Shown here: positions 4,072 to 33,603 of the stretch, in pieces | Numbering within the stretch: the first letter of the stretch is position 1 | How the letters are laid out: the number at the start of each line of letters is the position of its first letter | Source of the DNA: Bacilli bacterium | GTDB taxonomy: Bacteria > Bacillota_I > Bacilli_A > RFN20 > CAG-826 | Length of the DNA stretch: 64,000 nt | Reading direction: 5' to 3' | NCBI GenBank assembly: GCA_017447165.1 | Contig: JAFSOD010000004.1 | Location: forward strand, 367,267 to 431,266 | Translations under genes and position numbers: made by a program | Notes under the pieces: generated by a model | Seen by the model: only the letters and a program-made list of their open reading frames with translations | Databases searched by the model: none | Told to the model about the DNA's origin: nothing

Positions 4072-4527
4072 ATGAACAAATACATGAGAATGGCAATTAG
4101 TGAAGCCAGAAAAGGAATTAGAGCTGGTCATGGTGGACCTTTTGGTGCAGTTATTGTTAAAGATGGTGAAGTTATCGGAAAAGGACATAACCAAGTTTTA
4201 AAAAATAATGACCCTACTTGTCACGGTGAAATGATGGCGATTCACAAAGCCTGTAAAAAATTAGGTACTTTCGATTTAAGCGGATGCGAATTATACACTA
4301 CTGGTGAACCTTGCCCAATGTGTATGTCTGCTATTTTATGGGCTAATATTGATAAAGTATATTATGGATGTAATATAATTGATACTGAAGGAATTGGCTT
4401 TAGGGATGCCAAATTCTATGAAATGCAAAAACCTGGTGAGAGAGAAAAACTAGTTATCGAATTAGATAGAAAAGCTTGTTTAAAACTCTATGCTGAGTAT
4501 TCTAGACTCAACCACACTCTTTACTAA
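4072..4527 (+). CDS. guaD: Guanine deaminase-type nucleoside/base deaminase
   Basis: 151 aa, a zinc-dependent cytidine-deaminase-fold protein. The zinc site is HGEMMAI (catalytic Glu) plus PCPMC (PCxxC). The surrounding GGPFGAVIV, NDPTCHGE and AILWANIDKVYYG match Bacillus-type guanine deaminases closely, and the length is typical. The alternative, tRNA adenosine deaminase TadA, is less likely given the GGPFGAV start and the DTEGIGFRDAKFY C-terminus. It would convert guanine to xanthine and feed the purine operon at 13.4-30 kb. The usual HAE is HGE here. It follows the glycosyltransferase by 17 bp and is ended by a terminator. Confidence 0.8.
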   Translation: MNKYMRMAISEARKGIRAGHGGPFGAVIVKDGEVIGKGHNQVLKNNDPTCHGEMMAIHKACKKLGTFDLSGCELYTTGEPCPMCMSAILWANIDKVYYGCNIIDTEGIGFRDAKFYEMQKPGEREKLVIELDRKACLKLYAEYSRLNHTLY

Positions 4528-29565: not shown

Positions 29566-30195
29566 ATGAAAAACCTCAAAAAAATTATGGCTCTTGTCAT
29601 CATTGGTCTCGTCATTGTCTTTGGCGCTTTAGTGATGGCACAAGAAAAGGTTTTTTCTAACTTGGGAGAAATCTCATTTGCAGATAGATTCACAATTGGC
29701 ATGTCTATCCTCTACTTACTTAACTTGGTTATCGATATTTGCTTAATTGTTATCCCTGTTATCAATTTATTCTTTGTCATTTTTGACAAAAAACCTCCAT
29801 ATAGCTCAATGGTTAATTGTGCATTAATCGTTGTAAGTAAATACTTATTCTCCATTTTCATTTGGATGCTTATGATGATTGTCTGGGGCGCTGACGGTGA
29901 ATATTGGGTCTCATATTTATTCAAAGATAATATGGCTATTATCCCTCTTAGTGTTTTTCTTGTTGGCTTTATCTTTATTCTTGCATCTGGCAAAAAGAGT
30001 CTTGAAGGCACAATGGGAAGAGCAATTGCTGTTTCTATCGGTAGCGGTTTAACTGTTTTTGGTTTAATATTCTACTTTGTCAAAGATGCAGAATTAGATA
30101 AATTAGCAATCTTTGGTCTAGTCGTCATCGCAATTGCCTTATTAGGTTTAATCGTTTATTCGTTCTTACCACAAACTAGAGAATATAAAGAATAA
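29566..30195 (+). CDS. Small integral membrane protein at the end of the purine operon
   Basis: 209 aa with about six hydrophobic segments (residues ~7-27, 48-75, 88-107, 122-140, 148-168, 177-198). I recognise no transporter signature and no conserved charged residues in the membrane part. It follows ygeW by 7 bp and is closed by a terminator, so it is co-transcribed. A role in purine or product transport is possible from position alone, but six short helices without duplicated halves do not match the usual purine permeases (NCS2, 12-14 segments). Confidence 0.65.
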   Translation: MKNLKKIMALVIIGLVIVFGALVMAQEKVFSNLGEISFADRFTIGMSILYLLNLVIDICLIVIPVINLFFVIFDKKPPYSSMVNCALIVVSKYLFSIFIWMLMMIVWGADGEYWVSYLFKDNMAIIPLSVFLVGFIFILASGKKSLEGTMGRAIAVSIGSGLTVFGLIFYFVKDAELDKLAIFGLVVIAIALLGLIVYSFLPQTREYKE

Positions 30196-30218
30196 TCAAA
30201 TAATTCTTATCTCAAAAG

Positions 30219-30248
30219 AACTGGTGGAGCAATCCATCAGTTTTTTTA
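30219..30248 (+). terminator. Intrinsic terminator ending the purine operon
   Basis: AACTGGTGGA (30219-30228) pairs with TCCATCAGTT (30233-30242) around a GCAA loop; seven T follow. Confidence 0.88.
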
Positions 30249-30368
30249 CACATTAGAAATGTGAAAAAAAGTATCCAACTATATTTATATAATATATTTC
30301 TATTAATTAATACTTTGTATCACTTAATATAAATATAATTGGATAAAAATGTGGACAATAAATTTTGA

Positions 30369-30397
30369 TTGAAATTAGTTATTTTTCTTCATATTAT
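30369..30397 (+). promoter_or_regulatory. Promoter of the hypothetical gene at 30408
   Basis: TTGAAA (30369-30374), 17-bp spacer, TATTAT (30392-30397). The ATG at 30408 is 10 nt downstream of the -10, so the mRNA would have at most a few leader nucleotides. Confidence 0.6.
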
Positions 30398-30407
30398 TTG
30401 GCTAGTT

Positions 30408-30794
30408 ATGACAAGAAGAAAACCGCTAATTTACGATCCAACTTTACTTATCGAGGCGATTAAGAAATGGCCTAATCCCATGTATGAAAAAAAACATGAT
30501 CTTTATATATATGTTGAAGGTAACGCTAGAAGTAATCAAACAAGAGTGGATCATATTGTTGAGTATGGTCATGACTTAAAAGTTAGAGATTTAGAGTCGG
30601 TGCCAGAAGGAATCAAGAATTACTTTGCTTACAAGAAGGACCCCGTATATAAAAATACGTTTAATTATTACATTAAAAGAAAGGGAATGGATAAAGGGTT
30701 TATTAAAGTTTCTATAAGAATAAGTGATAATGACCCGCATTATGCCTGGATAAAAACAATATTCATTTCTTATAAAATAAAAGAATTGCCATAG
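30408..30794 (+). CDS. Small basic hypothetical protein, possible BECR-fold RNase-like domain
   Basis: 128 aa from the ATG at 30408 (MTRRKPLIYDP...). The start fits the promoter spacing better than an in-frame upstream start that would add 13 residues. The C-terminal half has DHIVEYGHDLKVRD, an NTFNYYIKRKG strand and AWIKTIFISYKI. This pattern (His-Gly-His region followed by beta strands) faintly recalls phage-type BECR nucleases, but I cannot confirm it. It is isolated, has no ribosome binding site, and lies directly before two RNA genes. It could be an uncharacterised toxin or a decayed phage gene. Confidence 0.5.
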   Translation: MTRRKPLIYDPTLLIEAIKKWPNPMYEKKHDLYIYVEGNARSNQTRVDHIVEYGHDLKVRDLESVPEGIKNYFAYKKDPVYKNTFNYYIKRKGMDKGFIKVSIRISDNDPHYAWIKTIFISYKIKELP

Positions 30795-30813
30795 CGATTA
30801 TATTTGTTATAAT
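30786..30813 (+). promoter_or_regulatory. Promoter of the ~120-nt structured RNA
   Basis: TTGCCA (30786-30791), 16-bp spacer, perfect TATAAT (30808-30813). The expected start, 7 nt downstream, is G30820, exactly the first base of the RNA's closing stem. The -35 overlaps the end of the preceding coding region. Confidence 0.75.
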
Positions 30814-30819
30814 AAAATC

Positions 30820-30940
30820 GTCAGAGGTGGAGAACCAGTGTGCGACCACGACGCATTCCTTCGGGAATGGATGCAGCGATCCAGGATGTTAACTGCCCTG
30901 GCTGACGAATAAGTATCTTCCAAGTGGGAGATATTTTTTT
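30820..30940 (+). ncRNA. Small structured RNA, class not recognised
   Basis: About 120 nt with its own promoter and terminator. The closing helix is GTCAG (30820-30824) with CTGAC (30902-30906). It holds a hairpin CATTCC-TTCG-GGAATG (30854-30869, extra-stable UUCG loop, extended by outer GC/GC pairs) and a hairpin CCAGG (30881-30885) with CCTGG (30897-30901) that would stack directly on the closing helix. No start codon with a ribosome binding site is present. It is not SRP RNA (no GGAA-loop domain) and not a tRNA. Function unknown. Confidence 0.75.
30914..30940 (+). terminator. Intrinsic terminator of the small RNA
   Basis: TATCTTCC (30914-30921) pairs with GGGAGATA (30926-30933, one G-U) around an AAGT loop; seven T follow. 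Confidence 0.85.
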
Positions 30941-31126
30941 ATATACATGCACATATGCGTGCGTCGCGATTTTCTATTATATTTTTTATGTTTATTATTT
31001 TTTATATTTATAATATTAAAAACTAATAAAAAACATTTTTTTCAAAAAAATATTAAAAAAGTAATTTAACATAGTTAAATTAAAATATTATTTATAAAAA
31101 AAGTGAAAAATAATTTAAAAAAACGC
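30941..31126. other. AT-rich spacer without genes
   Basis: About 185 bp, largely A/T runs (for example around 31010-31120). I see no reading frame, repeat or structured element until the promoter at 31127. Confidence 0.6.
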
Positions 31127-31155
31127 TTGCAATAGTTTTTCAATAAGCGCATACT
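31127..31155 (+). promoter_or_regulatory. Promoter of the large triplicated RNA
   Basis: TTGCAA (31127-31132), 17-bp spacer, CATACT (31150-31155). Start expected near 31162. The region is also flanked by GCTT...AAGC symmetry (31126-31147). Confidence 0.55.
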
Positions 31156-31230
31156 TATACACATCCAACACCGAAAGGCTCTTGGTTGAGAGATAATTAA
31201 TGATAGTTAATTAACTCTCAAGACTGGATA

Positions 31231-31485
31231 AGTCAATCACCGCGAAAAAGAAGAAGTTGATACAGCGGCCTACTAAGAATTAAAACAAAATTGATCTTAG
31301 ACTAATGATTGCACCAGCACGGTAGAAGACTCGTTCTCCTACCAAGGCACATCCTCCCCGTTACAGTGGATGCTGAGTTAGAACTTAACAGCTGAAAATC
31401 CACCGCCTGACAAGATCGAAGAGGACAGATATGAGGTAATAGCCATATCCACGACCGAATCACGCTACAATCAACTTAAAACGTG
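31231..31485 (+). repeat. RNA module 1
   Basis: Pseudoknot: TCAA 31233-31236 with TTGA 31257-31260, and CCGC 31240-31243 with GCGG 31265-31268. Hairpin: CTAAGA 31273 with TCTTAG 31295. Anchor at 31304. Hairpin: GGTAG 31321 with CTACC 31339. Nested core: TCCTC 31352 with GAGGA 31421, GTGGAT 31366 with ATCCAC 31398, GCTG 31372 with CAGC 31389. Distal hairpin: CACG 31461 with CGTG 31482, loop containing TCAACTTAAA. Confidence 0.85.
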
Positions 31486-31541
31486 AGATAAGTAGTCGAG
31501 ACCGCAAGATACTCGATACGAAAAAGGTTTGAAGTTCAGCT

Positions 31542-31798
31542 AACGTCAGACAATCAGCCCAATACACAACGTTGATAGTGAGGCATCTAGAATTAAATCT
31601 TCTAGTCAATGATTGCAGTTAACTTGCCATTAAGAATAATGGCTAAACGGCCCACCTCCCTGCTACAGTGGTCACTGAGTTAGAGCTTAACAGTGTAGAA
31701 AATCCACCGCCGGACACGATCAAAGAGGTAAAGAAAAAGTCTTATTAACTAAAAAGAATAGGAAAAACCTAATCCACATTATTCAACTCAAAGTGTGG
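31542..31798 (+). repeat. RNA module 2
   Basis: Pseudoknot: AACGT 31542 with ACGTT 31569, and GCC 31557 with GGC 31582. Hairpin: CTAGA 31587 with TCTAG 31601. Anchor at 31608. Hairpin: GCCATT 31626 with AATGGC 31638. Nested core: ACCTC 31654 with GAGGT 31725, GTGG 31668 with CCAC 31704, CACTG 31673 with CAGTG 31691. Distal hairpin: CCACA 31774 with TGTGG 31794, loop containing TCAACTCAAA. Confidence 0.85.
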
Positions 31799-31870
31799 TG
31801 AGACTTAGAAGGGTTACAAACTCTTAGCACCTTCTAAGCAGAAATGGTCTAATGAGCTTAAGACTAGATA

Positions 31871-32122
31871 ATTCAATCAGGTCCTTGAATTGAGTGGGGA
31901 CCTCTGGAAATTAAAAGCTTCCAGTTAAATGATTGCACTAGCAAAGGATTAGAAGAGATTCTAATCATCGGTACGTTCCTCCCTGATGGCAACATCACTG
32001 GTCTCCGCGTTAAAGTTTGACGGAGTAAACCCAGCACCGGACATGACAAAGAGGAAGACAGCCTCGAAGCTAACAACTAGAGGAAGCTGGCCATTGATAC
32101 GCAAATCAATTCATAACGTATC
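31871..32122 (+). repeat. RNA module 3
   Basis: Pseudoknot: ATTCAA 31871 with TTGAAT 31885, and GGTCC 31880 with GGACC 31898. Hairpin: CTGGAA 31904 with TTCCAG 31919. Anchor at 31928. Hairpin: GATTAGAA 31947 with TTCTAATC 31959. Nested core: TTCCTC 31976 with GAGGAA 32051, CTGG 31998 with CCAG 32031, CTCCG 32003 with CGGAG 32021. Distal hairpin: GATACG 32096 with CGTATC 32117, loop containing TCAATTCATAA. Confidence 0.85.
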
Positions 32123-32190
32123 AAAATCAAGAAGCACCACCAGTCAAAAGGAACTTAGCTTAAACACTGTGCTCGCACAGAGTCACGGCT

Positions 32191-32219
32191 AGCGGTAATG
32201 AGAAAAACCGCTTTTTTTT
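32191..32219 (+). terminator. Intrinsic terminator of the large RNA
   Basis: AGCGGT (32191-32196) pairs with ACCGCT (32207-32212), followed by eight T. Confidence 0.85.
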
Positions 32220-32232
32220 CGCACTTTTTCGA

Positions 32233-32261
32233 TTGTTTTACTATATAACACGTGTTATAAT
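32233..32261 (+). promoter_or_regulatory. Leaderless promoter with 16-bp palindromic operator for the Xre-DUF3990 gene
   Basis: TTGTTT (32233-32238), 17-bp spacer, perfect TATAAT (32256-32261); the ATG follows 6 nt later. A perfect 16-bp palindrome, TATAACACGTGTTATA (32244-32259), fills the spacer and overlaps the -10. This is the expected geometry for autorepression by the Xre protein encoded next. Confidence 0.8.
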
Positions 32262-32267
32262 GTCAGC

Positions 32268-33128
32268 ATGAAATCATACGACATACAAAAAGATTGTTTA
32301 TTAATTAGAAGAATGCTCAAAATGACACAGACTGAGTTTGCCGATGCGATCGAATTATCTTTTGCCACTATTAATCGCATTGAAAATGGAAAACATCGTC
32401 CTACTAATCCTATTATTGAAAAAATATATAGTTATGCTTATGAAAACAATTTGAGAATTAATAGCGTTCTTTCTGAAATTCTTCAAGAATCGTTTAATTG
32501 TATTTATTTTCATGGTGCAAAGAACGATATTGAAGGTGAACTAGACTTAAATCATTCTGATAAGAACATCGATTTTGGTCCGGGGTTTTACTTAGGTGAA
32601 TCATATAAACAGGCCTCTTCTTTTGTATCTAATGATAAAAATGGATCTGTTTATGTTTTCAAACTTGATGAAAGAAAATTAAACACCGTTAGTCTAGAAG
32701 TTGATTTAGATTGGATGCTAGCGATTTGTTATTATCGAGATACCTTAAAAGAGGCGCATCGTAATTCCTGCTACATTCAAAGATTAATTAAAAGAATCGA
32801 AGAAGCTGATGTGATAATAGCTCCTATTGCAGACAATTCGATGTATGAAATTATTACTAAATTCGCTCAAGGTAAGTTGACTGACGTCCAAGCAAGTCAT
32901 TGTTTATCTGCATCGTATTTAGGTAAACAACACGTAATTAAAAGTAGTAAAGCATTAACTAATTTAAAATTTGTTAATCGCCTATATTTATGTAAGCAAG
33001 AAAAAATAGATATATTAAAAGGAAAAGTGGAAGAAGATAAAATTGCAAACACAAAAGTAGATGCTTGTTTGATTAAATACCGTAGAGAAGGCAAATATAT
33101 CGAGGAAATACTAGATGAAATTAACTGA
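32268..33128 (+). CDS. Xre-type HTH regulator fused to a DUF3990 (ADP-ribosyltransferase-like) domain
   Basis: 286 aa. Residues ~8-60 are an Xre/Cro HTH (MTQTEFADAIELSFATINRIENGKHRPTN). Residues ~80-240 match DUF3990, with FHGAKNDIE at the start and DFGPGFYLGESYKQAS, the hallmark of this ART-like family; related domains act as toxins. It combines likely operator binding and a likely effector in one chain. The start ATG is fixed by the leaderless promoter. It overlaps the partner gene by 14 bp, so this looks like a two-gene toxin-antitoxin-type module. The substrate is unknown. Confidence 0.8.
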   Translation: MKSYDIQKDCLLIRRMLKMTQTEFADAIELSFATINRIENGKHRPTNPIIEKIYSYAYENNLRINSVLSEILQESFNCIYFHGAKNDIEGELDLNHSDKNIDFGPGFYLGESYKQASSFVSNDKNGSVYVFKLDERKLNTVSLEVDLDWMLAICYYRDTLKEAHRNSCYIQRLIKRIEEADVIIAPIADNSMYEIITKFAQGKLTDVQASHCLSASYLGKQHVIKSSKALTNLKFVNRLYLCKQEKIDILKGKVEEDKIANTKVDACLIKYRREGKYIEEILDEIN

Positions 33129-33603
33129 TGAAATGATCAAGATTTGTGAAATACAAGCATCGTATTTTTCTTCTTCAATAGAAGATTTTACTTGTGGTAG
33201 CAGGCTATTTACTTTTCGATTTATGAATTCAAAATTAGCAAAGTTACTAGATAATCCGGATTATATGTCTTTATATACTCCAACAAATTATAAAGAATTA
33301 TTGATTAAAGAATATCCAGGCTTAAATCAAAAGTATGGTTATAAAGTCGATGAACCGATTATGCACTGGATTGGCTATATCTATAGAGCAATCAGCTTAT
33401 TGCTACACATTTCATCAAAACACCTTTTAAAGAAGCTCCCGTTTGCCGATATGGTTTTTCTATATAAAGTCCATCATACTTATGGAGTTGAATACTGTGT
33501 TAATCGAATTAATCAAGAATATCAACTTGTTCGAACAAATAGTAGCGAAGAAAAAGAAATAGCAAAAAAAGTTTATAAAGACTTAATAATGTCTTTAAAA
33601 TAA
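33115..33603 (+). CDS. Partner protein of the DUF3990 module, function unknown
   Basis: 162 aa, mostly alpha-helical, soluble, with no motif I can name. Segments worth noting are DFTCGSRLFTFRFMNSKLAKLLD, PIMHWIGYIYRAISLLLHISSKHLL and a C-terminal TYGVEYCVNRINQEY. Proteins of this kind are found next to DUF3990 genes, which supports an antitoxin or accessory role. It is translated from an ATG inside the end of the upstream gene. The nitroreductase gene follows after 17 bp but has its own strong ribosome binding site. Confidence 0.65.
   Translation: MKLTDEMIKICEIQASYFSSSIEDFTCGSRLFTFRFMNSKLAKLLDNPDYMSLYTPTNYKELLIKEYPGLNQKYGYKVDEPIMHWIGYIYRAISLLLHISSKHLLKKLPFADMVFLYKVHHTYGVEYCVNRINQEYQLVRTNSSEEKEIAKKVYKDLIMSLK

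Follow-up and report, generated by a model that had tools for sequence, protein, structure and literature searches.

What does the small structured RNA encoded near the middle of the window, the whole stretch of 64,000 nucleotides from a Bacilli bacterium analyzed here, do, and with what does it act? The near-constant presence of this RNA behind a gene for a ribonuclease-like protein, a gene which ends 25 nt upstream of the RNA and was overlooked in an earlier note on this DNA, makes the pair most likely a new kind of toxin-antitoxin system. In its specific form, we consider it probable that the locus is a two-gene, type III-like module in which the RNA would bind and inhibit the nuclease. The two genes and their signals are arranged as follows:

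30369..30397, + strand: putative toxin promoter TTGAAA-17-TATTAT, ending 10 nt before the ATG; no Shine-Dalgarno sequence
30408..30794, + strand: predicted BECR-fold ribonuclease-like protein of 128 aa, putative toxin (AlphaFold2 model, conserved residues)
30786..30813, + strand: small RNA promoter TTGCCA-16-TATAAT, overlapping the toxin stop codon, its position conserved family-wide
30820..30906, + strand: small structured RNA of 87 nt, putative antitoxin (covariance models R1 and R2, 119 matches)
30911..30939, + strand: intrinsic terminator of the small RNA, a hairpin (30911-30936) and a T run, the sole terminator-like hairpin in 30100-32400

Is the RNA a gene in its own right? The earlier note had read a promoter that sets the first base at G30820, and this promoter is present, with TTGCCA at 30786-30791, TATAAT at 30808-30813 and an extended TG; it scores 11/12 and is the top promoter-like site within 30100-32400. 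The intrinsic terminator which the note placed behind the RNA is likewise there. Across the family, 83% of 117 copies carry a -10 box (at least 5/6 match) 4-9 nt 5' of the first base of the RNA, in 94 copies exactly 6 nt before it, as compared with 6-18% at control offsets, and a terminator follows within 110 nt in 110/116 copies, as compared with 11% in shuffles. The conserved position of the -10 box and the downstream terminators thus define a stand-alone transcript starting at P1, and, judged by these signals, 30820-30906 is a real gene for an RNA, equipped with a sigma-70 promoter and a terminator of its own. Its predicted fold comprises these elements:

30820-30824 with 30902-30906, + strand: helix P1, GTCAG/CTGAC, with compensatory changes in all five pairs
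30827-30830 with 30846-30849, + strand: helix P2, GUGG/CCAC, nearly invariant
30836-30839 with 30892-30895, + strand: pseudoknot CAGU/ACUG
30854..30869 (30854-30859 with 30864-30869), + strand: P3, the UUCG hairpin, with covariation
30881..30901 (30881-30885 with 30897-30901), + strand: P4, CCAGG/CCUGG, whose loop carries the 3' strand of the pseudoknot

The closing helix and the two hairpins, P3 and P4, had been recognized from the window alone and are all borne out, while P2 and the pseudoknot, which connects the P2 loop to the P4 loop, had escaped that reading. Folding energy is not significant alone (z -0.5 for the 87-nt core, z -1.9 for the 121 nt including the terminator); it is comparative covariation that places the RNA structure beyond chance. 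In 32 copies, 96.1% of the cells of the 24 proposed pairs are standard-paired, as compared with 25-46% in a control in which the partners were slid by 1-3 columns, and 16 of the 24 pairs have changed on both sides. The pseudoknot, which was left out of the model that aligned the copies, is 100% paired in alignment A2 and has undergone compensatory changes; relatives pair CGCUG/CAGCG, CGGUG/CACCG, CAGC/GCUG, GAGC/GCUC or UCAGCGU/GCGCUGA at this place. Four helices and the pseudoknot are thus backed by covariation in the aligned copies. P1, P3, P4 and the pseudoknot vary in sequence, whereas an unpaired core is near-invariant (GGUGGA, CGACCACG, CG and GCGAU), and some RNA subtypes have extra hairpins in P2 or P4.

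What kind of protein does the upstream gene encode? Both predicted models, that of the window protein (AlphaFold2; pLDDT 86, pTM 0.80) and that of a homolog about 20% identical to it, have helices packed on an antiparallel beta sheet, a fold of the BECR type. RelE toxins are BECR-fold proteins. In VIA-align, BrnT was the best match of the window protein (Z 7.0, 76 residues, 3.4 Å), followed by relatives of RelE, YafQ, ParE and HigB, and it again came first for the second model (Z 5.9, 76 residues), followed by RelE and CdiA toxin domains; a Z below 8 can reflect a common arrangement, and nearly all top rows in both searches represent one superfamily. BrnT has been described as a ribosome-independent RNase (PMC7180214). 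Matches of the window protein in BFVD are predicted phage MuF_C and nuclease proteins. Among the homologs, which were gathered by HMM, Pfam matches are weak (PBECR3, 2.4e-4; MuF_C, 0.0015, in 8/30 members), the window protein itself having none, and a profile search of PDB sequences yielded no match. ToxN and HEPN folds are absent from the structural matches, an absence that does not exclude either fold. All 30 members keep H49, H55 and D61, and R41, R91 and T117 are nearly invariant as well. The protein encoded at 30408-30794 is, as modeled, most likely a BECR-fold ribonuclease-like protein and putative toxin.

How closely are the two genes tied? In 224 genomes, 54/56 intact homologs of the protein gene are followed on their own strand, after 23-123 nt, by the RNA, intact meaning without in-frame stops and matching nearly the whole profile. 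Of the two exceptions, G023 has a diverged RNA with a terminator that is recognizable by eye, and in G196 a distant homolog is followed by a different structured element. The RNA is also found behind eight broken copies of the protein gene. The flanking genes of the 56 modules form 25 unrelated neighborhood clusters, and the commonest flanking protein, present in only 8/56 modules, leaves no constant protein neighbor as a type II antitoxin candidate. By genome, an intact toxin and the RNA occur together in 43, the RNA without an intact toxin in 29 and the toxin without a model-detected RNA in 2 (Fisher 3e-24), the genomes being MAGs, in which some absences may be assembly gaps, and kinship among the sequences inflating this figure as well as the Mantel figure given below. 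Roughly one RNA in two lacks an intact toxin gene next to it. As RNA-only genomes far outnumber toxin-only genomes, the distribution follows the pattern predicted for an antitoxin.

By their pairwise distances, RNA and toxin moreover diverge in parallel, with relatedness contributing. The Mantel correlation (Spearman) of RNA with protein distances is 0.45, with a permutation maximum of 0.15, the RNA of the nearest protein neighbor is among the five closest RNAs in 47/52 cases, and several genomes harbor two or three modules that are 58-78% diverged in their proteins, each with its own RNA subtype. Tandem RNA units occur in L044, L200 and L206, separated by linkers of 7-17 nt. L054, L061 and L207 each join two RNA subtypes in one transcript, with almost no linker, behind a single toxin gene, an arrangement to be expected of a transcript that protects against two toxins.

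The expression signals of the two genes differ. A Shine-Dalgarno-like site is missing in 52/53 toxin genes, as compared with its presence in 62% of 218 long background ORFs, and in many of these toxin genes a promoter-like -10 box sits no more than about 20 nt from the start codon. Weak or leaderless translation of the toxin is thus probable, whereas the RNA promoter is near-consensus. We infer toxicity, binding, inhibition and the trigger. A short-leader mRNA lacking a Shine-Dalgarno sequence would yield small amounts of a BECR-fold ribonuclease toxin, and the RNA would be made at a high level from its own promoter; the RNA would fold as a compact pseudoknot, bind the toxin and block its active site. 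If RNA synthesis stopped upon phage takeover, loss of the locus or stress, the RNA would be lost before the toxin, which would then cut cellular RNA, while orphan RNA copies could neutralize toxins in trans. Counting against this module are the modest fold matches (best Z 7.0 and 5.9), the weak sequence matches, a gene order that is reversed with respect to type III, and the many RNAs without an intact toxin, for which the RNA might have its own role.

What precedents exist for such an arrangement? Type III systems (ToxIN, CptIN, TenpIN, AbiQ) have the RNA first, in tandem repeats, and MazF/Kid-like toxins (PMC5086642). The present locus resembles them in its two-gene composition of an RNA and a ribonuclease-like protein, in the pseudoknotted RNA, in lineages that track each other and in the terminator behind the RNA (PMC5086642). 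However, whereas type III loci run from RNA gene through terminator to toxin, here the RNA comes second, under a promoter of its own; whereas their RNAs are tandem repeats of 34-50 nt, here it is mostly a single unit of about 87 nt or longer, tandem units being confined to a few loci, those named above among them; and the models of the putative toxin resemble BrnT/RelE rather than MazF/Kid, with an RNA sequence unrelated to Rfam families. Judged by these features, the module shares the pseudoknot with type III systems but falls outside their definition by the order of its genes and the architecture of its repeats.

AbiF/RCd22 and AvcID show that RNAs can also inhibit toxins other than ToxN (PMC12373285, PMC10511110). 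In Clostridioides difficile, a structured RNA binds the adjacent RNase-fold toxin AbiF directly and thereby neutralizes it, in cis as well as in trans (PMC12373285), and here, too, a structured RNA adjoins a putative toxin with a predicted RNase fold; however, AbiF is of the HEPN type, and RCd22 precedes it and has two 33-35-nt abiF motifs, whereas our RNA has no Rfam match. In AvcID, an RNA binds and inhibits the toxin and is lost once transcription stops (PMC10511110), much as the RNA might here, but the AvcID toxin is a deoxycytidylate deaminase. With BrnT/RelE and the phage PBECR/MuF_C nucleases the protein shares its predicted fold and weak profile matches, but the known BrnT/RelE systems use protein antitoxins, in place of which no constant protein neighbor is seen here. 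If the locus is indeed a toxin-antitoxin module, RNA antitoxins would also accompany BECR-fold ribonucleases, whose very large superfamily of toxins is known for its protein antitoxins and immunity proteins; the gene order would be reversed and the RNA class unrelated to known ones, and a structured RNA absent from Rfam would have a likely function. The many natural co-diverged pairs, the orphan RNAs and the fused two-subtype RNAs would then make the specificity between protein and RNA in toxin-antitoxin systems directly testable.

Might the RNA instead be the working part of a ribonucleoprotein nuclease, with the task of positioning, activating or guiding the BECR protein and not of inhibiting it? 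The strict pairing in cis with a nuclease-fold protein, the conserved unpaired core and the joint divergence of RNA subtypes and protein would all suit such a complex, and the dispersed RNA-only genes would then be a shared pool of subunits for an RNA-activated or RNA-positioned nuclease, of which the RNA would be an essential component. We consider both the complex and this account of the RNA-only genes unlikely, as the RNA occurs without the protein in the 29 genomes counted above, but the protein hardly ever without the RNA, as no variable guide-like segment was seen, and as the weak toxin and strong RNA expression signals fit a toxin-antitoxin system better. The orphan RNAs, those with no intact toxin beside them, are also the best argument for an independent trans-acting sRNA with a regulatory or housekeeping function, carried along with the protein gene by happenstance: they keep their promoters (a -10 box of at least 5/6 in 76%) and terminators (54/56), and at least 12 have a fixed 90-bp upstream cassette. 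Such an independent role is quite unlikely, however, for an RNA that stands beside 54/56 intact protein genes in at least 25 unrelated neighborhoods and whose subtypes track those of the toxin. That a small RNA adjoins a toxin gene also recalls type I systems, in which it would repress the toxin mRNA through base pairing. Here, however, the RNA lies on the same strand, downstream of the toxin gene, and its conserved fold is a compact pseudoknot, unlike the open form of an antisense RNA; its complementarity to the start of the toxin mRNA shows no excess, the duplex energy being -23.5 for cognate, -24.3 for non-cognate and -25.5 for shuffled pairs. As cognate duplexes are no better than controls, we rejected antisense action on the toxin mRNA, and a type I-like system is very improbable. 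A known RNA class, such as SRP RNA or a riboswitch, or a chance fold has next to no probability, as nothing was found in its favor, the covariation is strong, the family has 119 matches, neither the window RNA nor the other subtypes tested (five loci) had an Rfam match at or near the gathering score, and the SRP RNA of the source genome is located elsewhere (G000:C4:359056).

The earlier note had recognized no class for the RNA, with which this Rfam covariance-model check agrees; SRP and riboswitch identities being rejected in this way, the RNA is, on comparison with the cataloged families, a previously uncatalogued pseudoknotted RNA. How widespread is it? The source genome has three more copies not seen at first reading (C9:37668, C9:43330 and C4:80388, the last behind a decayed protein remnant). 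Model R1 has matches in 72/224 genomes of the source organism's family, and the search of the fetched loci gave the 119 RNA matches, with 107 distinct sequences, in one family of uncultured, mostly ruminant-gut Bacilli, the covariance-model E-values being rough. The named records with family members are MAGs of uncultured Bacilli, Bacillales or Erysipelotrichaceae, several of which refer to rumen or ruminant hosts (water buffalo, water deer, reindeer). Samples from the order, class and phylum contained no certain case outside the source family: a protein match in G461 was rejected for overlapping a DNA-glycosylase-like ORF, and an RNA match in G076 for having no toxin adjoining. Phage records gave no match by DNA or protein, plasmids none by protein, and viral contigs none by protein or strict RNA patterns, and a phage or plasmid origin was rejected on these grounds; a loose RNA pattern hit 120 viral stretches, and in the 80 loci listed the model scored at best about 22 bits, which we took as chance. 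The module has no description in the literature searched, a search that lay outside subscription literature and preprints.

Behind the small RNA, at 31150-32210, an RNA-like region of 1 kb contains three cow-rumen-1 (RF02946) units, spaced about 300 nt from one another. The proposal that the two RNAs form an RNA-rich island holds in part when conservation beside the large RNA is checked: copies of the large RNA 90-93% identical follow the small RNA in G010, G013 and G017, and G015 has a 70% copy behind another toxin-RNA module (L146), but in G007 and G002 the small RNA has no large RNA behind it. The large RNA is a frequent but loose neighbor, not a fixed part or partner of the module; the constant partner is the upstream protein gene.

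Further elements were observed around modules and orphan RNAs. The block shared by at least 12 orphan RNAs measures about 90 bp and lies 35-40 nt upstream of them (L054:8070-8165; also L038, L055, L057, L062, L194, L202 and L204); its opposite strand has TTGACA-16-TATAAT and a GAACC/GGTTC hairpin with a T run, the marks of a candidate RNA gene, divergent and about 45 nt long. In G196 (L195:2501-2821 and downstream), the element behind the distant homolog has GTGATAA/TTATCAC ends and reads as an RNA with a terminator on the opposite strand. Pairs of tRNA genes near modules (L054:7328-7479, L002:640-794, L062 ~4270-4400) perhaps mark an insertion hot spot. In the window itself, a gene with HTH and DUF3990 (ADP-ribosyltransferase-like, Pfam 2.1e-28) and a downstream ORF of 162 aa that overlaps it and has no Pfam match occupy 32268-33603, possibly a second toxin-antitoxin module.
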